Both the position numbers and the translations under genes were made by a program. The notes under the pieces were generated by a model that had not been told where the DNA came from, did not search any database, and saw nothing but the letters and a program-made list of their open reading frames with translations. This document shows, one piece after another, positions 5,601 through 60,904 of a stretch of DNA of 64,000 nucleotides; the first letter of the stretch is position 1, and every line of letters starts with the position of its first letter. Location of the stretch: contig CM049312.1 in assembly GCA_026874595.1 (NCBI GenBank), positions 78,407,429 to 78,471,428 of the forward strand, in the 5' to 3' direction. Source of the DNA: Sipunculus nudus. Its lineage: Eukaryota; Annelida; Sipuncula; Golfingiida; Sipunculidae.

Positions 5601-8600
5601 AGTGGCAAGACTGTCATCAGCAACTTTTTATCAGATGCAACAGAGACCTCTGGTGGAGAATATCATGCAACACAAGGAGTAAGGTAAGCCTAATCATAAA
5701 CTGCTCTCCTCCCAACACCAACCCCCCCCCCCCCCAAAAAAAATAAAAACTTTACAAAGACCTGAACTGGCCTTTACAAGTTGATTATATAAGCTAATTA
5801 TATAGTACTGTCGGACCCCGTTAATTCGGCACCATCGGGGATTAGGAATTATGCCGGATTACGCAGTTTGCCGGATTACGTATCAGGGACACCCACAGCT
5901 AAAAACACAAACCCAGGGAAGAGCAATATTTGCCGTATCTGTGATTATAATTAAAAATGAATTATATTATGCATAAAGTAAAAATTGAGTGATAATAAAA
6001 GTAAATAAAACACTTCAAACAATGTGCAAATAAACTTTATTCAAAAGTTCCAGCAGAATGTATCGATACAAAAAATAATGCAAATCGGAGGAATTAGGCC
6101 AAAAAAAAATAAAGGTATGGTTCTCAGGCACCGCCCGCATCAATTTTAAACCCCCGCATCAAAAATTTTTATTTTGATTTTCAATAAAAACTTTCCAATT
6201 TTGAGCTGCTACCGCTCTGACATTTCTTTCAAGAATATAAAACCATACAATTTCCTTTGTTTTGTAGTGCTTTTACTTATTTAACAAAATAAAACTGTTA
6301 TTTTCATGCTTTTCCCTTATCATTTGACATTTCTATCGAAACATACCAGAAAATTTGAAATAAAAAAAGCGCCCGCCCGCATTGATTCCCGAAAAAAAGT
6401 GCCTGAGAACCATACCTTTTTTTTATTTTGGCCTTACAGAATCATCACCTATATACAATGTCCATATACAACTCGGGCAAGCTCGGCAGTATCCGGCAGT
6501 GACGTAGAAGGGGGCGGGGCTGTCTCATCACTGTTTGGGAGAATGCCTGTATGCTTGAAACAGTTGGCGATAGTCTGCTCACTGACCTCGTTCCAAGCCT
6601 GTCTTATGAAGTAGATTGCATCTTTCACAGACGTTTTCTCTATTGCCCCACGGTCCTCAACTTGTGCAATCCAGTCCTTTGCCTGTATCTTTCTGTAGTG
6701 ACATTTGAAGGCTTGAATAACCCCCGCGTCCAGTGGCTGTAACTTTGACGTGGTATTGGGCGGCAGATAAACCAGTCGAACATGATCCCAGTGCTGGTCT
6801 TTGTGAGAAGTGTGGTTGTCGACCAACAGCACGATTTTCCTTCCCTGAAGCTTCATTTCCTGTTTATCTGGCTGACGTATTCTTCAAACATAGTGCTGAC
6901 CATCCACTCTTTCTTGTTATTCTTGAAAGTAACGATGGGCGCGGGGTGAATCCTTTAAAGCAGCGAGGTTTAGCGGATTTTCCGATCACGATTGGTTTTA
7001 GTTTCTCAGATCCGTCTGCATTTGCAGCAAGACCAACTGTCAGCCGATCCTTGCACTTCTTAGTTCCCTTGACTGGTGCTGTAGCAAGTGTTCTGTCAGG
7101 GCCTAGGCGGAAGAATAATCCAGTTTCGTCAAAATTGAAAATGTTGCAAAGACTGTATCCGACAAGTGCTGCTTGAACGTCACTTCGACCCTTTGATTCA
7201 ACTTGTTGGTCTACACTCCCTGATTCACCATGCATGACGTGCTGTTTGATGCCACCTCGTGCTTTCATCCTATCTATCCATCCATTCGAGTATTGGAAGT
7301 CGCTCCGTGGGCCACAGTGTCTTTCAACCATAGTGTCAATGCCTCTTCCAGCTGTGGATGCTTGCCCATTTTCATCCTTTTCACTGTGTCTGTGCTTCCA
7401 TCCATTTTCAGCCACTTGTCTTTGTTTGACAGTATGTCTGACACAGTCTGACGACCAATGTCAATCTTTTGTTCAGTAGCAACCCATCCCACGATGTCTC
7501 TCTGTTTCGCCTTTGGGTGTTTTTCTTTGTAGAGGCAGATGTCTCTCTTCAGAGAAACATTGATTTCACAGCGCTTTCATTTCGGCATAGCTGGCGTATG
7601 TCAATGACGATAATAAATACTCTTTAATCACTGCAGTATTTATAGGCATAAAAATCTTTAATTATTCACTCTTTTTAGTTTGTTTGTTCTTTGAAGTCAC
7701 TTTAAACATAATTAAATAGAATCAAAACAAGTAACAAACATAAACACAATGATTAAATCTACTCAACATTGACACGTTGTTTATGTTTGCAATCAACAAG
7801 CGAGACCAATACACCCTTTCATGTGTGATGGGTCGACGCTTCCGACCAAACAATCATTCAGTCAAAGCTAATTAATTATCAGTTTACACCGAAACCGCGG
7901 GTCTGTTTGCTCTGCACGCATGACCGCCAGTGAGCTGTATGATGTTCACCGGCCGGGAAGTCACAGCTAATTAATTATCAGTTTACACCGAAACTGCGGG
8001 TCTGTTTGCTCTGCCGGGCGTGCGACTTATGCATGACCGGCAGTGAGCTGTTTGATGTTCACCGGCGGGGAAGTCACTGAGGCGTGCCGGATTACGTAGA
8101 TGATGTTTATCATAAATAGGGATGTTGGTTCTCGGTAATTGTGCCGGAGCCGGATTACGCAAAAAGCCGGATTACGACCTAAAAATATAATGTGGGAAAT
8201 CCGTTCTCAAGAAATGTGCCGGTTTACGCCGAATGCCGGAATATCGAAGGCCGGATTAGAAGGGTCCGACTGTACAACATAATATTTGACCTGCCTTTCA
8301 GGAATAAGGTTTTTTATGCTCTGTCACACCAACATGCACACACCCGAACCTGCTCACAGTTATCCCATAATTAATCAAAACTTGAATATATCATTCATAC
8401 CCATCCAGTCACTTGCTCTGTTCTCGGAAGTGCTGAAAGAAGCGCACAAGACATGGAATTGTGGGAAAAACTGGCCGAGGTTTATTAAAAATAACATTAA
8501 AATTTCCATATTCAACATATTCAGCAATTATCCCTTCTTTCCCACTGACGGGAAGGTGGGGTACAACACGCCATATATATTGTATAGGTCATATTAAAAG

Positions 8601-11600: not shown

Positions 11601-14600
11601 CATGTTCTAACTGATCTGTGTATGTGCATTTAGTATATTTGCCAATGAAGTCAAATACACATATCACACCAAGAACAATAAGTAAAGAAATTACACTTAT
11701 TTTTCCTATATAATGTGTACAATTGATAAAATATTAATATATATCATTTATAATAAGGTAAAGTAGAAGCCTATTAGGCATTGAAACGACTCTTTTTAAA
11801 AACAAAAACATGGGTTCAGTTGGTGTTTAAGCCCCCCAGAAGTTCATCCCCATATAATGCACCTATACCTATAATGTTTTATATGTCACAAAGATGTCAC
11901 TGGTGGTGTTTGTAAAGCTGATTGTTTGTATCACTTGTGTTCCACACAGGATATTGGAATTTGAGGTGAACGGCATCAATGTTGGGGGAAGGACGGTGAC
12001 GGCAGAAGTAGAATTATGGGATGTCAGTGGAGACCACAGGTATAATACTTGCATCATAACAATTGTTATTCATATGTTTTACTGTAATTTGAGGTAGTGA
12101 TGATGATGATAATAAGAATAAAAACAAAAAAACAAAAATCTGAGTAAAAATAATAATAATAAATAATAACCTAATAATAATATTGGTGAATAGCATGGTA
12201 TACCCATCACCCATCCGTTAATTATTAGTGTCGCTACAATAACTTAGCAGGGCTTTGACGGATTTTCTTGAAAATCACCATAAGTACTTACGGACAGATT
12301 ATCATGCCCAGGTTTGATTATGGGCAAAGTCCATGCAAGCATATTTAATAAGGACACAGGTCACTCAACTAATTTGTGGTGTTGCAGCGATAAATTACAA
12401 AGAATATAAAAGATTTTGATAAAATTCATCAGAAATGTTAATCAATAAAATATCTTGCCTTATATGGAATTCCAGTGAAATTCATGCATATTAAATGAGG
12501 TCAGAGGTCACCGCACTTTTGAGGCACCATTGGGACCTACCAAAAATCCTATGGATTTTCATGACACTCAATATGTACATATTTACCAATAGACTTTCTT
12601 ACCTGTTTTACATTCTCATCAAAATTCCTGCAAATTAAATAAGGTCAGAGTTCACTGCACTTTGGAGGGACCATGGTGACTCAGAAAAATCCTATGGATT
12701 TACACAAAACTCGTTATACATATTTACCAATAATTTCTCACCTGAATTACATTCTCATCAAAATTCACGCATATTTAATGAGGTCATAGGTCACCAGATA
12801 TACGACGGGCGTATTATGCACATTTGCAGAGCTGTCACTGTTTCTAATTACTATAAAGTACCTATCATCTTTTTTTTTTAATTTTTCTTTTATGGCAAAG
12901 TCATGTGCTGGAAGCATATGAGCTGAACTGTATTGATATTTCAATAAAATGTATATGAATAATGTTTCAGGTTTGATGCTTGCTGGCCTGCCATAGCCAA
13001 GGACACATCAGGGGTGATGTTTGTATACAACCCTGACCAACCTAATCACGATAAAGCACTAGAAACATGGTGAGTCTAAACTTATGTAAGATAAATAAGA
13101 GGTGAGAAAATAAAAATACAATCAGTGATGTGAGGATCTGGATTCCAGTCCATGGCACCTTTCTATCAACTTAGACTTAGACTCTCAGGTCAGTCTTTGA
13201 GTGGACTTCGGTTGGTTTTGGATTCTCAACACTTACTCAAGGTCCAGACTTTGACTTGTATTTGAATGGCTTGTTCATGGACAGGCTTCTGTGGCCCAGG
13301 GATAGAGCACATGCCTCAAAGATGGGAGAGTGTTAGTGCGAATCTTAGCTGCAGGGGGGAGATTTTTCATTGTCGTCTCCTACCCAGCGTGAGCACTTTG
13401 TAGGCTGAATGGGAAGGCCCTTGCCCACAGGTGCAGTAGTCACCTGGCCTGGTTAAGACCAGGATATTAACTTTACACAGACTGTAGAGCTGATAGTTAT
13501 GCCGGGAATGCCTCAGGTATGCCAGGCTAAAGACATTGATTAAATGACTTGACAACTGGTGAGCAAAGACATTTTGCTGAAATACATTTTTTAAAAATAA
13601 TTTTTGTTGCATGTAACCGACTCCATTTGTTAATGCTGGTTTAACTCTAAGCAGGGTTTGTAATACTTTGAAATGTTAACCTTTCCATCAGAAACGCATA
13701 AATCTAGTTTAGCATTTCCATAGGAAAATTTTTCCTTTCAGAAATTCTGCTATAAATGCATCTTGCTATGATAATTATCATATCAAACTTACAATCAGTC
13801 ACTTCTGTTTTGACATTTCTGTGTGTAACGGTTACACCTGTTTTTTTATGGTGCAGCGTTATGCTTTTTGTTTTTGTTTAGATTAAATATAGGCAGGAGT
13901 TATTACATAATACATTGGCCAATAACATATTTTCTTACAAAGTAAGAATGTGGCTAGGGTTTAGACTGATACTTAGCTCTGTTTTGGCTCTGCTGTGCTG
14001 CTTATAAGAGAGCTCTATGATAACATAAGCAAAGCCATAATAGAGCAGGGTACCAGGTATCTCGGGGTTTCCAAATTACCATTATGTGAGGGAATATTTC
14101 GTGTTTTTTTTTTTTATTTCTATTTTTCATTATTTTTGATGTGGGCAACATCTGGGAGTTCACCTTTTAACCAGATTGGTACAAATGAAAAATGCCTTCT
14201 GTGTGCATGTGTCTGCCTGTCTGTGATGGGCAGAAAGGAATTAGTACAACCCCTGCTAAGCATGTACATCTGCAGAATTCCATTCTGGTTTCGAAAAACC
14301 GTACAATATGTGACAGGGCAGTATCACATGCTTTCTCACATTTTATACCCCGGTGTTAACCAGGCCCGGTGACTACTGCATGCACCAGTGCACCTGCAGG
14401 CCCTAGGTGTGAAATCAACCCAATTCCAGGGTCATACCACTTAGGAACCCCTGAAGGCCGCACTCGTTTGTGAGTGAAATCTGGCCACACTCACCTTCCG
14501 TGGGGGGCTGACTGTGTAAAAAATCTCACTTCCTCAGCTGAGATACATTAATATTACACTATTTTAATTTGTTCAGTGTTTTGTGAAAAAAAAAAACAGT

Positions 14601-17600
14601 ATACAGTAATCCAAACAGATTTTACCAATTATTTTATATGAATTATTTGATATGTACCCAAAATATTAAAAAAAAGACGAGGACCCAATGAAACATAGAG
14701 CAGGTGGAACGTCGTGTTTATTATAGACAGTCAACATAATATAAATCTTTTGCCTTGTGATGCTGAAGGCATAAATAATGTACATGAGATGTCAATGAGG
14801 CTACATGCTAAAAAAATGTTGTCCTGCCCATGTGCCTTGGTTATCCTTTTCACAGGGTTTTTTTTTTTTTTTGCTATAATATCCCTTTCTTGAACATCAT
14901 GAATTTGAAACCCTTGTGAACAAAACATTGACTACAGAACATTGCATGGCTTCATCAGATAGCTTTTTTAGTTCACTTTTATTTAATAATGAATTTATAG
15001 GTATATAAACTTTGCATACTTATTATGTCCTTGGCCTTCTTGTATTTTTTTAATGCTATATATCACATTTTTAAATGTTAAATACATGTATTATCCATCA
15101 GTCACTGACTTTGGTTGTAGAATGCTTGGATTATAATTTATTTGTTGTGCATGTTCTCTTACAGTGCTCAGCATTCACACATTTTATACGCTGTCACGTG
15201 GTGAAGTTCAGGCTATTTTTATGATATAGCTTGGTTGATGGTGAAATATATCACTGCTTATTTGCTGATTTTGACCTCTTCTGACCTTGACCTTTGTTGA
15301 CCTTCACCTTCATTATAGGTACAATCACTTTATACCCCTAACTGGTCTGAAGAGGTACAGTTGTGTGGCTTTATCACACAACAAACCTACCACCACCGAG
15401 AGTGTACGTTATTCTGCATGTAAGTAGGCCCACAATGCACTGTAAGGGCATGTGACCTTCCCACAATACACTTCAGTGGCATGTGACCTTCAGAACACCT
15501 GGTTTGACCTTGACTTTGCCTTGTTATTGTGTTTTTATTATTGTGACCCCATGAAGCACACCCTTCTACTGTCATAGAATTGAAATCTACCATGTTTGAA
15601 ATGTTCTGTATGTACAGACATATTGGTAAGATATGCACATGAATTACATTGATATTAGGTCATAGCAAAGAATGAAATAAAAACCATTGATTGATTTAGC
15701 AAAGTTCAGATATATCCACATTTCAGAAATTATATTTCAACACACTATTAACAAAAAAAGTAACTGCAGAATACAGGTGCTTAAAGTTTTGTAATATTAG
15801 TAATATTGGTTAGCATTGCAGGTAATGTTGTTAATCATTGAAATCTAAAAAGTAAAATACTTCCCTATCTGATGAATGACTGTATAATTATCTATAGGAG
15901 TGGCACATTTTAATGGGAAACACGTGAAAAAAATCAGTGGTAGGCCATATAATCAATGGCTACAGGGAATATTCAAGTTACAAGATATTGTATTCTTTGC
16001 TGTTACCTGATTATATCTAAGCAAATAATATGATAAGTATGTTTTTGTCTTTTTACGTTATTGTTGACGTTTCATGTTTTTCATGTCTGTGTTAAGCTGG
16101 GATCAGTTTGCATATTGGGCCACATGGCAGTTGAGCCCACCATTTTAGTATCCAGTGGATAATCCAAAAATATAAAATTCTAATCAGAAATAAGGATATC
16201 ATTATTGTCTAAACCCATATATCTAAAATCACTCCAAAAAGTGTTCCTCCGGATGCTACTCACAGGGTACAGGTCTAATGGCCACCAAACCCTCTCTGCA
16301 GAAATTAAGATTCCCACACTAAGATGGTCCTCAGATTACTTTCCATGAACTTTTAAAACCCTGACTTTGCAAAATTTTTTAAATTGCACATAGGTACCGC
16401 CATTTTGCATGCAGATTAAATCCTAGATGTTGGATGGCAGAATTAAGGGGCATATCTCTAGTTTAGTAAATTACACTGAAATCAAATGTTAAATGGGTGG
16501 TATGCTCATTTTCTTTGAATTCCAATTTTGCATTTGTAAATCACACAAAAAAGGTACTCACTGTTTAAAATGTGACAAATTCCCTGAGAAATAAGAACTG
16601 ACAAGTGATATCCAAGTGTATACTGAACCCAGCTTAGTTTGTTGATTATACCAATTACAAAAATGCAACACTGACACATAAAAAAGAAAATAGAAATTTG
16701 CACTCAGAGAGCACAGACCTTCGCCAAGGCAGCTTATTACCCCCATACGGCAGAAATGAGCATTTTCCTTAAAAAAGATTCCTTGTTCCAGATGGTTATC
16801 CAGTTCACTCCCATAATTCTATCAATTGCTCCTTGTATCATTGCTGAGCTATCCTGAAAATTTCATCAAAACCCTTCATAATGTTTTGAGTAATGTTGCT
16901 CCTTGTATCATTGCTGAGCTATCCTGAAAATTTCATCAAAATCCTTCATAATGTTTTGAGTAATGTTGCTCCTTGTATCATTGCCGAGCTATCCTGAAAC
17001 TTTCATCAAAACCCTTCATAATGTTTTGAGTAATGTTGCTCCTTGTATCATTGCTGAGCTATCCTGAAAATTTCATCAAAACCCTTCATAATGTTTTGAG
17101 TAATGTTGCTCCTTGTATCATTGCTGAGCTATCCTGAAACTTTCATCAAAACCCTTCATAATGTTTTGAGTAATGTTGCTCCTTGTATCATTGCTGAGCT
17201 ATGCTGAAACTTTCATCAAAACCCTTCATAATGTTTTGAGTAATGTTGCTCCTTGTATCATTGCTGAGCTATCCTGAAAATTTCATCAAAATCCTTCATA
17301 ATGTTTTGAGTAATGTTGCTCCTTGTATCATTGCTGAGCTATCCTGAAAATTTCATCAAAATCCTTCATAATGTTTTGAGTAATGTTGCTCCTTGTATCA
17401 TTGCCGAGCTATCCTGAAAATTTCATCAAAATCCTTCATAATGTTTTGAGTAATGTTGCTCCTTGTATCATTGCTGAGCTATCCTGAAAATTTCATCAAA
17501 ATCCTTCATAATGTTTTGAGTAATGTTGCTCCTTGTATCATTGCTGAGCTATCCTGAAAATTTCATCAAAATCCTTCATAATGTTTTGAGTAATGTTGCT

Positions 17601-20600
17601 CCTTGTATCATTGCTGAGCTATCCTGAAAATTTCATCAAAATCCTTCATAATGTTTTGAGTAATGTTGCTCCTTGTATCATTGCTGAGCTATCCTGAAAA
17701 TTTCATCAAAACCCTTCATAATGTTTTGAGTAATGTTGCTCCTTGTATCATTGCTGAGCTATCCTGAAAATTTCATCAAAATCCTTCATAATGTTTTGAG
17801 TAATGTTGCTCCTTGTATCATTGCTGAGCTATCCTGAAAATTTCATCAAAATCCTTCATAATGTTTTGAGTAATGTTGCTCCTTGTATCATTGCCGAGCT
17901 ATCCTGAAAATTTCATCAAAATCCTTCATAATGTTTTGAGTAATGTTGCTCCTTGTATCATTGCTGAGCTATCCTGAAAATTTCATCAAAATCCTTCATA
18001 ATGTTTTGAGTAATGTTGCTCCTTGTATCATTGCTGAGCTATCCTGAAAATTTCATCAAAATCCTTCATAATGTTTTGAGTAATGTTGCTCCTTGTATCA
18101 TTGCCGAGCTATCCTGAAAATTTCATCAAAATCCTTCATAATGTTTTGAGTAATGTTGCTCCTTGTATCATTGCCGAGCTATCCTGAAAATTTCATCAAA
18201 ACCCTTCATAATGTTTTGAGTAATGTTGCTCCTTGTATCATTGCTGAGCTATTCTAAAAATTTCATCAAAATCCTTCATAATGTTTTGAGTAATGTTGCT
18301 CCTTGTATCATTGCTGAGCTATCCTGAAAATTTCATCAAAACCCTTCATAATGTTTTGAGTAATGATGCTAATAGGCAGGCAAACAACAGACAGATAAAC
18401 CAATGCCTCCAAAAATATAAGCCCCGCTGCTTGGGAAAGGTTATAACCATTTGTCTAACTGCATAAATTCCTGTTCCCATAAATGATTTGCTTCCCTACA
18501 CATCCAATGCTATTGCAATGAAAGACTATTTAAACCAAATATTGTCAAAGATATGGTGTTTGCATTTCCTATTTCCAGTTAAGCTATCAAATAAATGAAC
18601 TATTAATCTAGAAAATTGGGAAAAGAAAATATAGACTGTTTCATTTATGCATTTTCTTGTGTCAGTGTTGTTTGTTTTTGGTACATTTGTGTATTTGGAG
18701 TGTTTCCGTGATTGACCTTAGTCACTGACCTTGACCTTGGTTATTGTTGTGACCTTGACCTTGGTGTCCTACAGGTACACAGATTTTGTTGAGAATCAGG
18801 GCCTGAGGGCGGCCCAGTGTGTTGTTTTGTCTCATCATAAACCCGACTCTGACAGGAGTCAACAGTCAGAACTTGGTATGTTTCCTCATATTTATTGTAA
18901 TCTTGATATCAATACTATTTGTTGCTCCATATTTACAATGCTAAAGAATTGAAATTAAAGATTTGACCTTGCTAAACACTAGTAATTTTTTAAATACTTC
19001 ATCAGTTATTGTGCATTTAGAGTTGTGTGGTATCTCTAAAAAAAATATAATTATTCCTCCCTTGTTAATACTTCTGGTAACATAACCCTTAATTAATCAG
19101 AAGAAATGCTTTTATTATCTTTGTGGTGTTTCATTTTTTTTCAGAATTACTTTTCTTACTGTGCAACAGATGGTGCTTGATTAACATGAAATTAAAATAA
19201 CACATTAATTGTATGAGACATATTATTCCTTTTTGAACATTTTAATTTAGTAACAACCAAAATATAATAATGTTTTGTATCCCTGCAGTTTGATTACAGC
19301 AAGTGAAAGCTTAATGATGTATAATTTTCAAGTATGTTTCATGTGAGTTTTTTTCTGTGTGCATTTGTTTTTGTTGTTAATCTGAGTATCCATGTGTGTT
19401 ATGTGTAATCTGAGGCTGTGGTGTCAGGGTAAGAAATTCTAAGTACATGATAAGGAATAATATCCCCATACTAATAAAAATAATGCCTTTATTTATCTCT
19501 TTAAAATGATACTTATTGCTTCAAAGACACTTTTTTATCATGCAAGTGTCACCTACTTAATCATAATCGATCATCGACAGCATATCAGCAACTGATGATC
19601 GATTATTAGTCACTTTTGGGAAGTGTTAGGAATCTGTTGTAATTTCATGATCTGTCATGTGTAATGATTGGTCGACTTCCAGGAGTATGAAATTCCTGTT
19701 CAAATATACACCTGTACATCCTGTAGCTTGAAATATACGTCCGATATTGGCTAAACTATCCAACAACTATATAACCTACATGTGTATATAGTAAACATAA
19801 AGCATTAATCTATTAGTAAACACAGTGTTTGGTAAGTTTGTTTACATAAATATTTTGAAAGCATAATTTCCATCATTAATAAGCTTAACATTTATGAAAA
19901 ACTAATAGATTATGGCAACGCAAGATCAATCATCTGATCGATCATGGATTATAATGGATCATTGGTCACATCACTACTTTTATATATGGAAGGAGAAATG
20001 TGTCCCTCATCTTTTTCTGAAAGTGTCCAGTCCTCTGTGACAAGTCACAACTCTGTGCTGTGTAAAGTAAATGGATTTACCAAGTGGTTAGTAATTGTAT
20101 GAAATTTAACCTGAATAATTCCCCTCTGCCATACTTAAATGGAAAATACCTGCAGTTACCTTTCATTCACCTCATCTTTATTTATGTAATATTTATTCCA
20201 TATTTAAGTGATGGTGCTTTGTTTCATTTTTAGCAAACCTGTGAGCTTATGCGATGGTGCGTCGTCGTCCATCGTACGCCGTGCATTGTGCGTCGTCTGT
20301 ACGTTAACCATAGCTATCTCAAAAATGACAGGAGCTAGCATCACCAAATTTTTTACAAATAATCAGTCATCTGAAAAACTGTATCGGATTTTGTATATTT
20401 TTTTTCTAACTGCATTTTCTTAGATTTTATAGGGAAAAAGCTAAAAAAGCTTTAAAAATCTTCTTCTCCGAAACTGTCCAGCCAAATTTTCCAATATTTC
20501 ACAGAAATGATCCCTGGAACAATTTCTCTCAAGTTTGTTCGAATGGTTCCAGGTCAGAGATTTTTGGCCGAGTTACAGGAGGTTGAACTTAGTCATATGT

Positions 20601-23596
20601 CCAAAAAAGTACACTAAAATTAAAATCTCAGAAATGGCTAGAGCTATAATCACCAAATTTTACACCAATGTTTGTCACATATCTGATTTTGAGGTATTGG
20701 TGGCGCCACCTACATTGATGAGTTTTTTACAAGAGAAAATGTAATTTTAAACTCTTCTAGCTTATACACTGATTTATGATGAAACTGTTAATCTGATTGG
20801 TTTAAACTTTACAAGAATTATTCTATGGTAAGGTTCTGCCAGTTTTATAAGAATAGATTGGGTATACAGTTTTAAAAAAGCATTGAAGCCAATTGAAAAA
20901 GGTTTTCTGTATTTGAAAAAAGATTTGACAACATGCTGAGTTTCAGCACCCAAGTCAAGAGGTCACTCAGTACAAACAGGTGGGGTCCAGACATCACCAT
21001 GGCAACTGACCTGGCTCGGGGGGGGGGGGGTGTCTAAACAATGTGTCTAGACGTCTAGACACAGCGTCTAGATGTCTAGACACAATGTTTAGATGCAGAA
21101 TTCCCAGATTATTGGAACTATATCTTTCAACTGTTTGAAAAAATTTGGTTTGTATTTTAAACGAACATATGAACTGCTGCGGCCTCATTTTTGGTTGACC
21201 TCTGACCTTTCCTGGCTGCCCCGCATCCATTTGTGTGTGTGTTTCCACACATAAACACACATATCTCGGGAACCGTTTGACAAGTCAGGCTAAAAATTTT
21301 ACAAAAATGTAACCCCTTGATAGCTTTTTTACATACACTAAACATGGTGGTGCAACCTGCAACCATTTTTGCACAGCGTCCATCTGTTCATCTGCCTTGG
21401 GATAATATCACTCATATCTCAGCAGTGGTTTTACTTATCCACCTGAAATTTTGCAGGTTTATACATCCTGGACAGCTTTCTTGATTTTATGACAGGTGGT
21501 GCAACCTACATTTACGTTTACTCTGCAGACATCCAAGCTCATATCTCAGGAACCATATGACTGATTGGGCCAAAATTTTGCATGTGTATAGATCTCACAT
21601 AGCTCTTCATCATAGGCAAAACTGGTGGCGCCACCTGCAACCATTTTTGCACAGTGTGCATCTGTTCATCTGCCTTGGCATAAAATCACTCATATCTCAG
21701 CAGTGGTTTGACATATCCACCTGATATTTTGCAGGTTTATAAATCCTAGACAATTTTCTCGATTTTATGACAGGTGGCACCATCTACATTCACGTTTATG
21801 CTGCAGACATCCATGCTCATATCTCGGAAACCATTTGGCCGATTGGGCCAATATTATGCATTATTATAGATCTCACATAGCTCTTCATCATAGGCAAAAC
21901 TGGTGGCGCCACCTGCAACCACTTATGCACAGCGTTCATCTGTTCATCTGCCTTGGGATAAAATCACTCATATCTCAGAAGTGGTGTGACTTATCCACCT
22001 GAAATTTTGCAGGTTTATACATCCTGGACAGCTTTCTTGATTTTATGACAGGTGGCGCCACCTACATTCACGTTTACTCTGCAGACATCCAAGCTCATAT
22101 CTTGGGAACTGTTTGACCGATTGGGCCAAAATTTTGCATGTGTATAGATCTCACATAGCTCTTCATCATAGGCAAAACTGGTGCGCCACCTGCAACCATT
22201 TTTGCACAGCGTGCATCTGTTCATCTGCCTTGGCATAAAATCATTCATATCTAAGCAGTGGTTTGACTTATCCAACTGATATTTTGCAGGTTTATACATC
22301 CTGGACAGCTTTCTTGATTTTATGACAGGTGGCGCCACCTACATTCACGTTAACTCTGCAGACATCCAATTTTATATCTCTAGAACTGTTTGACCGATTG
22401 GGCCAAAATTTTGCTTGTCTATAGATCTCACATAGCTCTTCATCATAAGCAAAACTGGTGGCGCCACCTGCAACCACTTATGAACACCGTCCATCTGTTC
22501 ATCTGCCTTGGGATAAAATCACTCATATCTCAGCAGTGGTTTGACTTATCCATCTGAAATTTGGCGGGTTTATACATCCTGGACAATTTTCTCAATTTTA
22601 TGACAGGTGGCACCACCTACATTCACGTTTACGCTGCAGACATCCATGCTTATATGCAACACACCTCACTCTATTCCCCTTGCCACTTAATCCATGCCTC
22701 ACTTCACCTGTCCCACTCTGATTTCTGCGGATACAAAGTTGCTTGTCGACTACCCATATTCTAGTTTTAAAATGTCCTAGTCTGAAACTTGCAGGTCTGA
22801 AATGTCCATTTTGCTGAAATCATAATGACTAAGGTAGATATGCAGGACTTAAAAGGATCAATATTAAATTTTAAAAATAAACCTCCATTCATACTCCCAA
22901 ACTTTGGACAGGTTCGCATTAGGCCTGTAGGCCTTGTTTGTCATGAAACTCCTCTGTTGCCATGCATAGGAAAACCTGTTTTTAATTTGAACTATCAGAT
23001 AGATGGCCAAATGTGTCCTAAGGAGAGCTATTGTTTTGTAAATGGGCTATTACACTGCCATCTACCAGGAACTACATGAAATAAACAAGAAAGAATAATA
23101 TGCTAGCATATATATTTTCACATAAATGCATTAGGTGTAGCTTCTTTTTAAATGTGCCTATATTTGTCTTTAATGTTTGTTTACCATTACCATATGCAGT
23201 ATGTGCATCTAATTGGTTGAATTCGACTTATTTTAACCAATACTGCCCTGATGATATATATATATATGTAGCTGCAGCAATTGTTCTACAGTTTTCCTAA
23301 TTTTATATCATTTAAGTTATGTCCCTGAAAAAGGAATATATCAACTTTATAATATTAGTTAAAACAGTTCCTGCATCAATGATATCATGATGATTAATGA
23401 TATTCCCTTTGCATTAACAAAATCACCTTTATGTTCATTAGTGGGGCCATTCCAGAACATCCGAGAGATCCAGGTGAACCTCGAAGAGGATGGAGAGACC
23501 TTCAGACAGGAGTTTACGAACTACCTGGCAGGTCTGCTGTCAGCGCTGTCTGATAAACGGGAGCAAGAGGAGCTCAGCATCATGAACAGCAGATAG
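2590..23596 (+). CDS. IFT22: IFT22 (RABL5), intraflagellar transport GTPase: whole-gene span
   Basis: Six coding exons join to 567 nt (188 residues plus stop), close to the roughly 185 residues of vertebrate IFT22. Joined exons: 2590-2628, 5601-5683, 11950-12039, 12971-13069, one of 15319-15419 or 18775-18875, then 23442-23596. IFT22 is a Rab-like, atypical small GTPase that binds the IFT-B core (IFT74/81) and travels in cilia. Visible motifs are the P-loop GPCQSGKT (residues 10-17, split by intron 1), the switch I threonine T37 in ATQGVR, and WDVSGD (D65..G68, the G3 DxxG). Next come the family signature CWPAIAKD, the G4-equivalent segment LSHHKPD or LSHNKPT (residues 122-128), and the C-terminal block ending EELSIM. 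There is no prenylation cysteine, as expected for IFT22. Introns range from 0.9 to 6.3 kb and carry most of the mobile elements of this half of the window. Confidence 0.95.
2745..2890. repeat. Dispersed SINE-like repeat, copy 1
   Basis: The string GCAAGACAAATTAAGAG..GTCAAGTGGAGATATTTAAA aligns with 5118-5165 (GCAAGACAAGTTGAGAG..GTCAAGTGGGGACATTTAAA). Both copies are in IFT22 intron 1. Boundaries are uncertain. Confidence 0.55.
3035..3125 (-). repeat. tRNA-derived SINE head (relic)
   Basis: On the minus strand a tRNA-like stretch contains GGCTCACTTAGTAGCG followed about 40 bp later by a B-box GGTTCGATTCC. The fold is degenerate and no CCA or discrete tRNA gene structure is evident, so it is read as the head of a tRNA-derived SINE rather than a tRNA gene. 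Confidence 0.5.
3638..3712 (-). repeat. tRNA-derived SINE head (relic)
   Basis: The minus strand reads TGGCTCAGTGGCAGAG (A-box-like), then about 30 bp later CCTGGTTCGAGTCTC (B-box), a typical Pol III internal promoter pair. It sits in IFT22 intron 1. The acceptor stem does not pair convincingly, so a functional tRNA is not claimed. Confidence 0.55.
5055..5190. repeat. Dispersed SINE-like repeat, copy 2
   Basis: Diverged second copy of the repeat at 2745-2890, also in IFT22 intron 1 and in the same orientation. Confidence 0.5.
5601..5683 (+). CDS. IFT22: IFT22 coding exon 2
   Basis: Begins after TAAATTTCAG with AGT GGC AAG ACT (SGKT, second half of the P-loop) and ends in AAG|GTAAGCC, phase 2 (the split codon becomes R41). 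It encodes residues 14-40 including the switch I ATQGV. Confidence 0.95.
6449..7588 (-). pseudogene. Tigger transposase (CENP-B-like HTH plus DDE), disabled
   Basis: The reading starts at an ATG whose complement lies at 7586-7588, but the fourth codon is TGA, at the position of the usual arginine in the MPKRK-type N terminus. The frame then continues as a psq/CENP-B helix-turn-helix (IVGWVATEQKIDIGRQTVSD) to about 7274. A second frame (down to 6864) holds GWIDRMKARGG and the first catalytic Asp in FNFDETGLF. A third frame (6856-6449) holds the second Asp in LLVDNHTSH and the third in LQPLDAGVIQAF, after YLPPNTTS. At least two frameshifts plus the early stop make it non-functional, though all three catalytic aspartates survive. 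Confidence 0.93.
7867..8076. repeat. Tandem duplication inside the Tigger 5' subterminal region
   Basis: A ~97-bp unit starting AGCTAATTAATTATCAG at 7867 is repeated from 7964. The second copy has an extra block of about 14 bp (CGGGCGTGCGACTT) next to GCATGACCG. The duplication lies between the transposase start and the right terminal inverted repeat. Confidence 0.85.
9457..9474. repeat. Poly-C tract
   Basis: Homopolymer of about 18 C. Similar G or C runs occur at about 1448-1466, 5720-5734 and 21010-21020. Confidence 0.9.
9640..10390. repeat. Degenerate CTAGAAAACCAT minisatellite interrupted by a MITE
   Basis: Before 9800 and after 10210 the sequence is a ragged series of ~20-bp units around (C)TAGAAAACCATNTGC. 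The MITE copy at 9801-10208 lies between the two halves, suggesting insertion into an older tandem repeat in IFT22 intron 2. Confidence 0.5.
9801..10208. mobile_element. ~0.4-kb MITE, copy A
   Basis: Aligns over its whole length with 19560-19968. Shared strings include CACTTTTG.GAAGTG, CCTACATGTGTATATA and TTATGGCA.TGCAAGATC. The ends are roughly inverted: GATCATAATTGCTCATGG at one end and TCATTGATTATGACTGATC at the other. No coding capacity. Confidence 0.7.
11229..11863. mobile_element. 635-bp MITE with ~36-bp inverted ends and TA target site
   Basis: The left end GGTGCATTATATGGGGATGA, continuing ACTTCAGGGGGCT, is mirrored at the right end, whose reverse complement differs in only a few bases. 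TA flanks both ends (11227-11228 and 11864-11865), as for Tc1/mariner-type MITEs. Inside are two diverged direct repeats of roughly 170 bp (about 11410-11590 and 11620-11795), aligned through GACACTTATTTTT / TTACACTTATTTTT and TAGAAGACTATT / TAGAAGCCTATT. It ends 86 bp before IFT22 exon 3. Confidence 0.85.
11950..12039 (+). CDS. IFT22: IFT22 coding exon 3
   Basis: Follows the acceptor TTCCACACAG and encodes ILEFEVNGINVG to WDVSGDH (residues 42-70), including the G3 motif DVSG. It ends in phase 2 at CACAG|GTATAA. Confidence 0.95.
12480..12815. repeat. Dispersed repeat with ~125-bp internal units
   Basis: Three successive diverged units contain AAATTCNTGCAxATTxAATxAGGTCA, then CACTTTgGAGGnACCAT, AATCCTATGGATTT and ACATATTTACCAATA. 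The block ends in ATATACGACGGGCGTATTAT. It is non-coding and lies in IFT22 intron 3. Confidence 0.65.
12971..13069 (+). CDS. IFT22: IFT22 coding exon 4
   Basis: After AATGTTTCAG it encodes FDACWPAIAKD, then SGVMFVYNPDQPNHDK and the start of LETW (residues 72-103). It ends in phase 2 inside a tryptophan codon, TG|GTGAGT. CWPA.xKDxxGVxxVxN is characteristic of IFT22. Confidence 0.95.
13275..13460 (+). repeat. tRNA-derived SINE-like repeat
   Basis: TGTGGCCCAGGGATAGAGC resembles an A-box, followed by GCGAATCTTAGC in B-box position. After that comes a body containing GAAGGCCCTTGCCCACAGG. Lies in IFT22 intron 4. Confidence 0.45.
15319..15419 (+). CDS. IFT22: IFT22 alternative exon 5a
   Basis: Acceptor TTCATTATAG|GTAC and consensus donor GCAT|GTAAGT delimit exactly 101 nt, the same length and phases as exon 5b. 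It encodes 33 codons from YNHFIPLTGL to YSA plus split codons at both ends. Aligned without gaps to exon 5b, 11 of 33 residues are identical (Y, F, GL, CV, LSH, KP). Its G4-equivalent segment is LSHNKPT, with the N and K of NKxD but T in place of D. If the donor is not used, translation stops two codons later (TGT AAG TAG). Expression is inferred, not shown. An alternative in-exon donor, AGT|GTACGT, would be in phase 0 and would not join exon 6 in frame. Confidence 0.72.
16711..18446. mobile_element. MITE-like element hosting an expanded minisatellite
   Basis: The left end ACCTTCGCCAAGGCAGC is imperfectly mirrored by the reverse complement of the right end, ACCTTTCCCAAGCAGCGGGG. The right part contains AGGCAGGCAAACAACAGACAG, a type of tail common in invertebrate MITE/SINE families. 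Between them lies the 70-bp tandem array. It sits in the intron between exons 5a and 5b of IFT22. Confidence 0.6.
16827..18369. repeat. 70-bp minisatellite, 22 copies
   Basis: The unit starts TTGCTCCTTGTATCATTGC and ends CATAATGTTTTGAGTAATG. The anchor CCTTGTATCA occurs at 16831 and then every 70 bp to 18301, giving 22 copies. Units are nearly identical, with recurrent variants at a few positions (AAAACCC/AAAATCC, TTGCTG/TTGCCG, GAAAAT/GAAACT), implying recent amplification. It has no coding potential. Confidence 0.97.
18775..18875 (+). CDS. IFT22: IFT22 alternative exon 5b
   Basis: Acceptor GTGTCCTACAG|GTAC and donor CTTG|GTATGT enclose 101 nt. It encodes YTDFVENQGLRAAQCVVLSH, then HKPDSDRSQQSEL. 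This fits the vertebrate IFT22 sequence here better than exon 5a does, so it is probably the ancestral version. The G4-equivalent segment is LSHHKPD, with H in place of N but D retained. It joins exon 4 (completing W104) and exon 6 in frame. Confidence 0.93.
19560..19968. mobile_element. ~0.4-kb MITE, copy B
   Basis: Diverged partner of 9801-10208 in the same orientation, in the last IFT22 intron. The inverted ends are TCATAATCGATCATCG and CGATCATGGATTATAATGGA. Confidence 0.7.
20225..20760. repeat. Dispersed repeat with GTGCGTCGTCGTCC head
   Basis: Contains GCGATGGTGCGTCGTCGTCC, two diverged stretches of the form GACAGGAGCTAGCATCACCAAATTTT / GGCTAGAGCTATAATCACCAAATTTT, and no sustained reading frame. 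It is typical of invertebrate MITEs carrying internal tandem units. Confidence 0.55.
21240..22655. repeat. 278-bp tandem repeat, about five copies
   Basis: The anchor CATATCTCAGCAGTGG, or a one-base variant, recurs at about 21413, 21691, 21969, 22246 and 22524, a period of 277-278 bp. Each unit contains TTTTATGACAGGTGGCGCCA and a second half-unit with AAAACTGGTGGCGCCACCTG. It lies in the last IFT22 intron. Apparent minus-strand ORFs here are only the repeat. Confidence 0.93.
23442..23596 (+). CDS. IFT22: IFT22 coding exon 6 (terminal)
   Basis: After TTCATTAG it continues in phase 1 as GPFQNIREIQVNLEEDGE to LSDKREQEELSIMNSR and a TAG stop (residues 139-188). The EEDxExxRxEFxxYL..L pattern and terminal EELSIM match the IFT22 C terminus. 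Confidence 0.95.
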
Positions 23597-27409: not shown

Positions 27410-28570
27410 TAAGCTGACTTTAAGTCATGCTGGGCTATAGGCTTAGCGATGGGTCTTTGTCCGTCGTCCTTCCGTCTGTCCGTCCGGCCTCCGGCCGGCC
27501 GTCCGTCCGTTAGCAGGGAACAAATCGTAACCGTGGGGGCTAGGGCCATGAACCCTATGCAGTCTTAGAGGTTCAAAATGATCTCATTGCAAACCTGAAA
27601 TTAGGTCACTGCGACCTATATTCTCGAAGTTATGGGGTGTGTTTGCACCCCACAGAAATAATTCTTTTAGCCAAAATTTTCATCCCAAACCTTCCATCTT
27701 TCACATACAGCTCACCTACCAACAGAAGAAGAACAATAATTATTTTGAGGTCACAAGGTCAAAGGTCAAGGTCACAGAACCAACTTCCTTGAAAAGCCTG
27801 TGGATGCACTTTAAGCCAAACCTTCTATCCCAATTCTTTGATCTTTCACATATAGCTCGCCTACTAAGTGGGAGAAGAATCCTATAGACGTTGAGGTCAC
27901 AAGGTCAAAGGTCAGGGTCACAGGATCCACTTCTTTGAAAAGGTTGTGGACAAATTTCAAGCTAGACCTTTCATTCCAAACCTTTCAGCACTGATATCGC
28001 TTCTCTGCCAACAGGGGAAAAAGACCTGTTGATTTTGAGGTCAAGGGTCAAGTTCACAGCACCCTCTCCTTGCGTGGAGTCATTTTCAGGCAAACTTTTC
28101 AATGTATTCTTTCCATCTGTCATATATGGCTTACCTACCAATAGGGGAAGAAGCCTATTGATGTTGAGTTCAAAAGGTCAAAAGTCAAGGTCACAATATT
28201 GTTCTAAATGCTTGTGAACATATTTCAAGTGAAACTGTTCAACCCAAACCTTCAGTCTTTCACATATGCCACATCTATGCATCACTGTATGTGATTCAAA
28301 CTTCATATTTATGGGTCTTTTTGCATGAAGAAATAACTAATTGATTTTGAGGTCAGCTGGTCAGGAGGTTAAAGGTTGCAGGTCTAAGTTATTCACTCAT
28401 TGGTTGCCAAGTAATTACACCCGGCCAGATGTAAGTTGTTAGTAGTAACCCATCATTTAGAAAGAATCCAGTTGATATGTGGGCAAAAGGCCAAGGTCAT
28501 AGGTCAGGGATGTTCACAATAACTTATTTTGTAGACCATCTCTATTTTTCTTGTACATATAACCATTGGT
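27410..28570. repeat. Dispersed repeat with AGGTCAAAGGTCA units, copy 1
   Basis: Opens with AGCTGACTTTAAGTCATGCT and a GTCCGTCGTCC..GTCTGTCCGTCC run, followed by four or five diverged units of about 130-150 bp. Each unit has AGGTCAAAGGTCAAGGTCACA, TTCCTTGAAAAG and AACCTTC..TCTTTCACATAT. It is homologous to 29268-29762. Apparent ORFs here are not genes. Confidence 0.85.
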
Positions 28571-29267
28571 TATGGTACATCTCACTGTTTGGCTGTAATT
28601 GTGAGTGATGCTGGTGACATATGACTCTCTTTTGTATCAGCCTGTTAAGTGATAAGGCTGAGTAATAAATACCTCGTTACTGCATAACAAAAACACTGTT
28701 TCCGGAATGCTTCAGCCAGGCATTAAGACTGTGAGTGTATAGTAAGGTTTAGCTACTGATTTATAAGATGATGGGAACATTTTGCAGTTTATTTTATGGA
28801 ATCATAGCAATAAACTTAGTTTCCTAGATATCTGAATATTTTTATATAAATCACCAGATATTAAAGCAAATGTTTGTTCTCATAATATGTGGATGTGTAC
28901 CTGGATTTAGGATGGCTTTTTTTATTACAAGACCTTTAGTCATGCTTTCTGCATTTATTTTCTTTCAGGTTTTGCAGTTTACCTATCCTGCTGATCCCAT
29001 TGAAAAGCAGAGTGATAATAAAAAATATTGGACTTACACTTTTTACAGTTGCATATCTATAAATCTAATATGAGGGTCTGAAAATGCCTTTTGAATTGTT
29101 TTGGACATTCATTACTGTAACATCCTTTGGAGAATTTGCTACAAGTTTGGTCTCTTATTGGAGTATGTGTGATATCAAATGTCAGACTTGTCAGAAATCC
29201 ATTATGTCTGCCAGTTAGCCACCTTAGAAATCCTTTTGTCAGTGCAGTTTCAGTGATTTTTAGCTCA

Positions 29268-37220: not shown

Positions 37221-38512
37221 ACCCTCGTGCCCTCTCCTTTATATGCACACCTCTTCACAGACCTGCCCTGTCCTTTATATGCACACCTCCTCTACAGACC
37301 TGCCCTGTCCTTTATATGCACACCTCCTCTACAGACCTGCCCTGTCCTTTATATGCACACCTCCTCTACAGACCTGCCCTGTCCTTTATATGCACACCTC
37401 CTCCACAGACCTGCCCTGTCCTTTATATGCACACCTCCTCCACAGACCTGCCCTGTCCTTTATATGTACACCTCCTCTACAGACCTGCCCTGTCCTTTAT
37501 ATGCACACCTCCTCCACAGACCTGCCCTGTCCTTTATATGCACACCTCCTCTACAGACCTGCCCTGTCCTTTATATGCACACCTCTACAGACCTGCCCTG
37601 TCCTTTATATGCACACCTCCTCTACAGACCTGCCCTGTCCTTTATATGCACACCTCCTCTACAGACCTGCCCTGTCCTTTATATGCACACCTCCTCTACA
37701 GACCTGCCCTGTCCTTTATATGCACACCTCCTCTACAGACCTGCCCTGTCCTTTATATGCACACCTCTTCACAGACCTGCCCTCTCCTTTATATGCACAC
37801 CTCCTCTACAGACCTGCCCTCTCCTTTATATGCACACCTCCTCTACAGACCTGCCCTCTCCTTTATATGCACACCTCCTCTACAGACCTGCCCTCTCCTT
37901 TATATGCACACCTCCTCTACAGACCTGCCCTCTCCTTTATATGCACACCTCCTCTACAGACCTGCCCTCTCCTTTATATGCACACCTCCTCTACAGACCT
38001 GCCCTCTCCTTTATATGCACACCTTCTCTACAGACCTGCCCTCTCCTTTATATGCACACCTCCTCTACAGACCTGCCCTCTCCTTTATATGCACACCTCC
38101 TCTACAGACCTGCCCTCTCCTTTATATGCACACCTCTACAGACCTGCCCTCTCCTTTATATGCACACCTCCTCTACAGACCTGCCCTCTCCTTTATATGC
38201 ACACCTCCTCTACAGACCTGCCCTGTCCTCTATATGCACACCTCCTCCACAGACCTGCCCTGTCCTTTATATGCACACCTCCTCTACAGACCTGCCCTGT
38301 CCTTTATATGCACACCTCCTCTACAGACCTGCCCTGTCCTTTATATGCACACCTCCTCTACAGACCTGCCCTGTCCTTTATATGCACACCTCCTCTACAG
38401 ACCTGCCCTGTCCTTTATATGCACACCTCTTCACAGACCTGCCCTGTCCTTTATATGCACACCTCCTCTACAGACCTGCCCTGTCCTTTATATGCACACC
38501 TCTACAGACCTC
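37221..38512. repeat. ~37-bp minisatellite, about 35 copies
   Basis: The unit is built from CCTGCCCTGTCCTTTATATG followed by CACACCTCCTCTACAGA. Some units lack three bases (CACACCTCTACAGA) and some carry CACCTCTTCACAGA. The tenth base defines blocks: mostly CCTGCCCTGTCC to about 37770, CCTGCCCTCTCC to about 38220, then CCTGCCCTGTCC again. Because 37 is not a multiple of three and the unit lacks stops in any phase, all three forward frames stay open for over 400 codons. Confidence 0.97.
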
Positions 38513-59446: not shown

Positions 59447-59851
59447 TCAGAAGGGACGTGAGTTTTTCCTTGGGACCTGTAATATTGAATGTGTCCTGGT
59501 GGTTCTGCCTTTCGGTGTTTGAGCCTCAACAAAGATAGATTTCCTCCTCGTGGGGGCCCCCTTGTCCGGCACGTTGGTTTTATAACATTTTCGTCTCCTA
59601 TTTTGTTTTTCGAAATATTGTATGTAAGCATGTATAATAGCTAGAATTATCACAAGCGCAAATAATATGGCAACCACTAGGAAAGCCTTCACCATAGGTG
59701 ATAACCCCAACACTTCACCGTCGTCGTTGGTCGGAAAATCCTCTTCTGGGAGTAGAATTGACGGTCTGTCCGAAACTCCCCATGATTTGTAATGAATGAC
59801 TGTGACGTTAGAGGGCTCCATGGGGTCATCCTTTCTTCTGACAAGCTTCAT
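59447..59851 (-). CDS. Putative single-pass membrane protein, 134 residues
   Basis: Open frame with ATG in favourable context (CTCACCATGA) and an in-frame TAG nine bases upstream (TAG CTC ACC ATG), so the start is self-contained. Residues 1-52 are polar and acidic with one N-glycosylation sequon (NVT). A strongly hydrophobic stretch follows (about residues 54-79, VKAFLVVAILFALVIILAII within it), then a basic tail with NRRRKCYK and a C terminus rich in R, T and S. The positive-inside rule predicts N-outside and C-cytoplasmic, without a signal peptide. No family recognised. It could be a single-exon gene or the TM/tail exon of a larger receptor. A decayed tail copy at 48575-48636 shows the frame was part of the duplicated unit. 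Confidence 0.5.
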   Translation of the reverse strand: MKLVRRKDDPMEPSNVTVIHYKSWGVSDRPSILLPEEDFPTNDDGEVLGLSPMVKAFLVVAILFALVIILAIIHAYIQYFEKQNRRRKCYKTNVPDKGAPTRRKSIFVEAQTPKGRTTRTHSILQVPRKNSRPF

Positions 59852-60904
59852 GGTGAGCTATTTTCCAACACCTTTACATGCAATATTATATCCTATGTTG
59901 AAGACATCGTAAACAATTTTGTAGAAGTCCTTGGCAATCTTGTATTAAAAGGCATTTCAAATGAAAGAAGACCCTAACAGAAGCAAGCAACCACAGGTGT
60001 GCCGACTTATCGTAAAGTTCAGTTTCACACAGTTATCGTGGTTTCTCTAATATTATCTCCATGTTGGTAGGAAGTTGCCTTCAATTTGCCTATATTTGTT
60101 TTCAGCTAAAGACGCTATCTGCTTTAACTGCTAATCCGATGATGTTCAATGACACGGACTTTTTTAACAGAGAACATAGTTTCGACTTATCCATCCATAT
60201 GCTTTTTTTTATAACTTTCTCATTCAAAATATAGAAAATTATTTGGAAACCAAATAATTTATTTTGTAATTTGATTGTATCGGTTTAAACCTTTTTGTTC
60301 TGATTGGAAGGTGGAATTAAAAAAAAAACGCATTTGAAGATGTAATCCAGAAACGGCATTCACCTAATGGCTTTTTTTGCTCAGAGTAGCCATAGTATAA
60401 AGCAAAGTAATGCCTTCCACTATGATTAGGCGCCAATCACCGTTAGAGACCCGTTCATCAAAGAGAACGCACACAAAGCTCCAGATAATAGATGCAATTA
60501 GTCAAAATCTATTATATTTGAACACTGTCTTGTAAGGGAATAGAAATCCCAATATTCGACTCCGTATTTATTGATGAATTCCTTCACGTTTACTTCCAGC
60601 CTCGGCGGATAGAAGCCACTTGACTCAAAGTATTAATCTTATGTCTCAGACTCTCGCTGATTGCAGACGCAACATATTTACAATCCAGATTAAACGTAAA
60701 TAATAGGAATGTATGGGACCGGGAATTTATTATGATTTGTATCTTTTCCTGTAAATACTGGATGCTATGATATCTTGATGATTGTCTTTGATGTTGAATT
60801 AATCAGCTGGAGTGTTTCCTTCAGATTTAGACGGCCATCAAGTCTCCGGAGGATATGATGTACCTGCAACAGATGTAAATAAATATTGTACGACAATGCA
60901 CATC

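Follow-up and report, generated by a model that had tools for sequence, protein, structure and literature searches.

A candidate pair of mutually exclusive exons in the IFT22 gene of the sipunculan Sipunculus nudus, with counterparts in other lophotrochozoans

Introduction

The Rab GTPase gene RAB6A carries a duplicated coding exon that is used alternatively, and the resulting forms, RAB6A and RAB6A', differ at few residues. Our study reports on a comparable arrangement in IFT22 (RABL5), a small-GTPase gene encoding a subunit of the intraflagellar transport B (IFT-B) complex, in the sipunculan annelid Sipunculus nudus. The window, by which we mean the whole stretch of DNA that was analysed, comprises 64,000 nucleotides (nt) of contig CM049312.1 (assembly GCA_026874595.1, positions 78,407,429 to 78,471,428 of the forward strand); within it, exon 5 of IFT22 is present in two versions, 5a and 5b, which appear to be alternatives. 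As in RAB6A, one small-GTPase gene holds a duplicated coding exon and would give rise to two forms; unlike the RAB6A forms, the two IFT22 versions differ at 21 of 33 residues, in a part of the IFT-B subunit that takes in strand beta5 and its G4-like loop.

Other described systems share parts of this arrangement. Among human tandem duplicated exon substitutions most events are said to be ancient (PMC9741552); the IFT22 pair differs in that it lies in lophotrochozoans, and the words RAB6A, IFT, GTPase and RAB are absent from the main text of that source. OGDH provides a parallel in exons 4a and 4b, a homologous pair of which one or the other is used to tune a protein (PMC7969005), and the alternative oxidase of Crassostrea virginica offers a lophotrochozoan gene in which a duplicated exon is alternatively spliced, in a different protein (PMC5589949). 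Alternative splicing of the same gene has been described in human, where exon 3 of RABL5/IFT22 is skipped (PMC2533698); there another exon is concerned, its skipping arose in the human line by way of Alu insertions, and no duplicated exon is involved. The original prediction knew of no description of mutually exclusive exons in IFT22, and our full-text literature search, with most subscription journals outside its scope, likewise found no published description of the 5a/5b pair. To our knowledge, IFT22 has not been noted for an alternative exon pair.

Results

Structure of the gene and resemblance of the two exons

The plus strand of the window contains a complete IFT22 coding region of six exons, delimited by tblastn with human IFT22 and by splice signals. 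Exon 5a, the second version of the fifth exon (15319-15419, plus strand), encodes YNHFIPLTGLKRYSCVALSHNKPTTTESVRYSA and ends at the donor CAT/GTAAGT; exon 5b, the usual version (18775-18875, plus strand), encodes YTDFVENQGLRAAQCVVLSHHKPDSDRSQQSEL and ends at the donor TTG/GTATGT. Both were identified with a hidden Markov model (HMM) and by their splice sites, and both are 101 nt long, have open frames and GT/AG sites, and supply the third base of a Trp codon at their start and the first base of a codon completed in exon 6 at their end, all of which agrees with the original prediction. The remaining exons, on the same strand, are exon 1 (coding part, from the start codon to the splice donor, 2590-2628), exon 2 (P-loop to switch I region, 5601-5683), exon 3 (11950-12039), exon 4 (12971-13069, ending after the two bases of the Trp codon) and exon 6 (coding part including the stop codon, 23442-23596). 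The P-loop GPCQSGKT is encoded across exons 1 and 2.

Translation of the spliced models gives a protein of 188 residues with either exon 5 version alone. Inclusion of both shifts the frame and leads to a stop 69 nt upstream of the last junction (counted by hand), while skipping of both shifts it to a stop within exon 6. Because both or neither shifts the frame, the two versions would be used one at a time, as had been argued from the exon lengths. With good confidence we take the two IFT22 exons 5a and 5b to have arisen by tandem duplication and to be mutually exclusive, as predicted from their arrangement in the gene.

A protein search with the full-length S. nudus product returned IFT22 homologues as best matches, the first with 61% identity over 99% of the length; since the best match is only 61% identical, the species' own IFT22 seems to be absent from the searched collection. 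A search of the PDB with a profile made from five proteins that carry 5a placed the IFT22 chains 6ian and 6ia7 at the top. The published assembly of S. nudus comprises 17 chromosomes and 1,427 Mb (PMC10212961), and a search of the 1.4265-Gb genome with 301 nt spanning 5a gave a single match.

The two versions are identical at 12 of 33 residues, one more than originally counted, and reach a BLOSUM62 score of 60; the runner-up against the exon, among 9,976 stop-free 33-codon stretches on the plus strand of the window, scores 13, and in 60 random Markov windows no splice-flanked candidate out of 296 scored above 7. An HMM built from 38 rows of exon 5, all from other species and including neither window copy, detects 5b at an E-value of 1.1e-13 and 5a at 9e-9 in the six frames of the window, and found no third copy there, the next match having an E-value of 1.1. 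The score and the HMM match lie far above chance, and 5a is thus a genuine relative of exon 5. The usual form is 5b; 5a is a copy that has diverged and stayed open, with good splice sites.

Exon 5 swaps in predicted proteins of other species

Two protein searches, from which the best 120 of 216 and the best 120 of 571 matches were taken, yielded 141 different IFT22-like proteins, to which the following counts refer. A pairwise scan for a backbone more than 97% identical combined with an exon 5 less than 70% identical returned exactly three pairs. In the limpet Patella vulgata (X3/X4) and in the bryozoan Watersipora subatra (X1/X2) the backbone is 100% identical and the proteins differ solely in exon 5; the third pair, Haliotis asinina and H. 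rubra X2, spans two species and has a backbone identity of 97.4%. By eye, the borders of the differing stretch match those of the window's exon 5 within about one residue in all three pairs.

Exon 5 is nearer to 5a than to 5b in five of the 141 proteins, namely Haliotis rubra X2, Patella vulgata X4, Watersipora subatra X2, Lytechinus and Frankliniella. The sea urchin Lytechinus (83 vs 80) and the thrips Frankliniella (42 vs 41) are near ties and were not counted as carriers. The sole listed model of Lottia gigantea has an exon 5 that resembles the alternative form of Patella (score 86 against Patella 5a); compared with the window it is nearer to 5b (71) than to 5a (62); it stands outside the five, and it was placed with the 5a rows for its likeness to Patella 5a.

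These isoforms give independent backing to the candidate pair. The S. nudus sequence itself bears out the candidate pair first proposed; the swap is not private to this animal, as limpet and bryozoan gene models have it too. The tissues originally suggested for examination, gill and mantle, imply a mollusc, and S. nudus is an annelid. On these gene models we conclude that a predicted mutually exclusive IFT22 exon 5 pair occurs in at least three lophotrochozoan phyla.

Several observations weigh against the reading of 5a and 5b as a mutually exclusive pair. A 5a-like exon is found in only three of the 141 proteins (four with Lottia), and 30 other listed lophotrochozoan proteins, counted by their names and including the three partner isoforms, have none; bivalves and both named annelids, Owenia and Ridgeia, belong to these. 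A protein search with the exon 5a segment alone gave no candidate. The Patella and Watersipora isoforms are database predictions, known as protein models alone, and 5a in S. nudus is known from genomic DNA alone. Variants produced by the NCBI pipeline usually require transcript support. Lastly, 5a and 5b match at 17, 16 and 14 of 33 sites at first, second and third codon positions, and these near-equal figures mean that the pair by itself gives no clear signal of purifying selection.

The mere 12 common residues, the even spread of matches over codon positions and the absence of a like exon from most listed relatives would also suit a dead duplicate, its frame kept by luck, that rarely or never enters mature mRNA. 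A neutral copy so diverged would, however, be expected to have lost its frame, its 101-nt length or its splice sites, and 5a keeps all of these; it still fits the exon 5 profile of other animals, and a like exon recurs in the predicted Patella and Watersipora isoforms. We consider a dead duplicate unlikely, and regard the alternative exon pair as real and very likely mutually exclusive, with similar pairs predicted for the limpet and the bryozoan. IFT22 would then probably come in two forms. In viral contigs, nine stretches fitted a pattern and none encoded a relative; Rfam gave no match at the gathering score.

The part of the protein that changes

The GTPase fold is evident from Pfam matches to Roc, Ras and Arf and from structural models of the Patella isoforms, to which, rather than to the S. 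nudus protein, the following details apply. AlphaFold produced confident models of both Patella forms, with a mean predicted local distance difference test (pLDDT) score of 87.6 for X4 (5a type) and 89.6 for X3 (5b type), and strand beta5 is formed in both. Exon 5 corresponds in these models to the end of alpha3, a loop, strand beta5 and the next loop, with a pLDDT of about 90 up to beta5 and of 71-79 beyond it. Foldseek gave Trypanosoma brucei IFT22 (6ian) as the best match to the Patella X4 model.

The NKxD (G4) motif, with which Ras-like GTPases read the base, comes after beta5. At the G4-like position the window encodes SHHKPD in 5b and SHNKPT in 5a. The HKP after beta5 has been lost from the usual-type exon 5 of two bryozoans, Watersipora X1 and Bugula; in Watersipora the usual form is without HKP and the alternative form reads AHAKPG. 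Among the 33 other usual-type rows, H is found two places before the K in 31, K or R in 32 and P in 28. The swap would exchange one side of the GTPase fold: the last part of helix alpha3, strand beta5 and the base-reading, G4-like loop. The Rab-like domain of IFT22 rests on the IFT81/74 coiled coil (PMC7561706). The swap thus probably alters nucleotide reading or the adjoining surface, and the two forms of IFT22 would differ in the way they read nucleotides or in their partner in the IFT-B train.

Splice sites and the maintenance of exclusivity

On a donor scoring table, the donors of 5a and 5b score 9.1 and 6.1; the better one, that of 5a, has a value reached by 0.36% of the 3,593 GT dinucleotides in the window, and the early judgement that both exons have good splice sites holds. 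Upstream of the acceptors lie AG-free zones of 87 nt (5a) and 51 nt (5b).

We propose that exon 4 would be spliced to one of the two versions, 5a or 5b, and this in turn to exon 6, with a tissue- or stage-specific factor picking the exon. Transcripts including both would be removed through the frame shift and decay, their stop lying 69 nt before the last junction, and frame and decay may be sufficient against double inclusion. Decay of double-inclusion transcripts is a route named in PMC6071210, where FGFR2 IIIb/IIIc is cited for it; nonsense-mediated decay may likewise help to degrade such transcripts here, in a different gene and with decay in S. nudus being our inference.

Exclusivity might instead be kept by RNA structure, by a U2/U12 mismatch or by distant branch points, mechanisms documented for other exon pairs (PMC6071210, PMC7969005), and not by frame and decay together with a regulator. 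The donors, by eye, appear to be of the U2 type and none of the U12 type, for which reason a mismatch was judged unlikely. A distant branch point across the 3.4-kb intron was also judged unlikely, as the two AG-free zones speak against it; in this respect the 51-nt zone before 5b sets the pair apart from OGDH 4a/4b (PMC7969005). Among 14 inverted-repeat pairs of at least 14 nt in this single genome, none places two exon-adjacent arms in competition for one site, a length limit that leaves room for short competing pairings. We give these mechanisms a low probability and favour frame and decay with a regulator.

One origin or several

The evidence on whether all 5a exons go back to one origin points both ways. 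A tree was built from 40 exon 5 segments and 35 columns, its bootstrap not having settled. The best tree places the five 5a rows in two groups, the gastropods (94/93) and the window with Watersipora (93/86), neither of them starred; this requires two changes between types, against 4.8 in shuffles, with 3 of 500 shuffles as low. A single 5a clade is not rejected (approximately unbiased test, p-AU 0.43), and all 5a rows stand together in 22% of the 200 bootstrap trees. Window and Watersipora 5a have 12 residues in common against 6.1 expected under drift with unequal sites (0.2% of simulations), and six derived residues against 1.9 (0.7%), the pair having been picked out for its likeness.

These signs count against a rival account in which exon 5 was duplicated independently in the annelid, gastropod and bryozoan lines and the copies later drifted alike. 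Other results favour it. Window 5a is as near to its own 5b as to Watersipora 5a (each with a score of 60 and 12 identical residues); the row that it matches with the highest score is a usual exon, that of a sea urchin (83, 14 identical), and for Haliotis 5a, too, the top score (88) falls to a usual exon, that of Mya. Trees pairing each 5a with the usual exon of its own lineage are not rejected (p-AU 0.18 to 0.29), and most listed lophotrochozoans lack 5a. In the remaining comparisons, window 5a has 10 residues in common with Lottia against 6.7 expected (7%) and eight with Haliotis 5a against 7.0 (38%), both unremarkable, and 10 with Patella 5a against 5.8 (4%).

Profiles from which one lineage at a time was left out classed window 5a (6.5 bits) and Watersipora 5a (3.5 bits) as 5a type, with none of 35 usual rows above zero; the gastropod 5a exons were not so classed (-4.8 to -16.2 bits), and the usual exon of Bugula scored -7.0 bits. 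In a fairer test, with a 5a profile drawn from gastropods only, window 5a scored -4.5 bits, a value reached by 18-20% of freely drifting simulated sequences. This result lies within drift, and we no longer claim firmly that all 5a exons have a single origin; one ancient origin stands at about an even chance.

The plain likeness figures against a single origin led us to raise our estimate for several origins to a little short of even, and to lower that for a more far-reaching proposal to the level of a tentative idea. It would have an IFT22 splice switch in lophotrochozoans that predates the split of annelids, molluscs and bryozoans and yields two kinds of IFT-B train, differing in the base-reading loop and the neighbouring surface and serving, for example, motile as against sensory cilia, or sperm. 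Bivalves and others would have lost one form, and the usual form of bryozoans would have lost the HKP that the alternative form kept.

Other features of the window

The motif TGACCTT had been taken, from its presence before both acceptors, as a sign of local duplication. Twelve of its 18 plus-strand copies in the window do lie within 100 nt of 5a or 5b; on the minus strand, a diverged repeat at 27600-28600 is, by eye, built round TGACCTT and 'gacctcaaaatcaa' in units of about 140 bases. Because this other-strand repeat consists of the same motif, the clustering is no evidence for a shared duplication, and TGACCTT was rejected both as a duplication trace and as a specific splicing element; it may serve as branch point and pyrimidine tract.

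The introns of IFT22 hold further repeats. A 70-bp tandem repeat of 22.1 copies (16826-18370, plus strand, from a repeat scan) occupies part of the intron between 5a and 5b, where we claim no role for it in the pair, and a 278-bp tandem repeat of 4.7 copies (21340-22655) lies between 5b and exon 6. Fragments of a DDE_1 transposase occur on the minus strand at 6449-7460, in the intron that separates exon 2 from exon 3; as they are split over two overlapping open frames, the transposase gene looks broken. Downstream of IFT22, a 37-bp tandem repeat of 34.7 copies (37228-38502) is open in all three plus-strand frames, for up to 498 codons, and for that reason these long frames are probably no genes. 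An open stretch of 136 codons at 59447-59857 on the minus strand, which has no Pfam match and, by eye, is likely to encode a membrane helix, is perhaps an exon of some gene.

Discussion

IFT-B trains are generally regarded as uniform in composition within one organism. If the pair described here is used as its arrangement suggests, an animal would possess two splice forms of an IFT-B GTPase, and the composition of its trains would be tunable by splicing. Human RPE1 cells and C. elegans cilia show no visible defect when IFT22 is lost; in Trypanosoma and Chlamydomonas its knock-down results in short flagella (PMC5992529). Animals that retain two versions of the protein would provide a natural test of which part of IFT22 is important.

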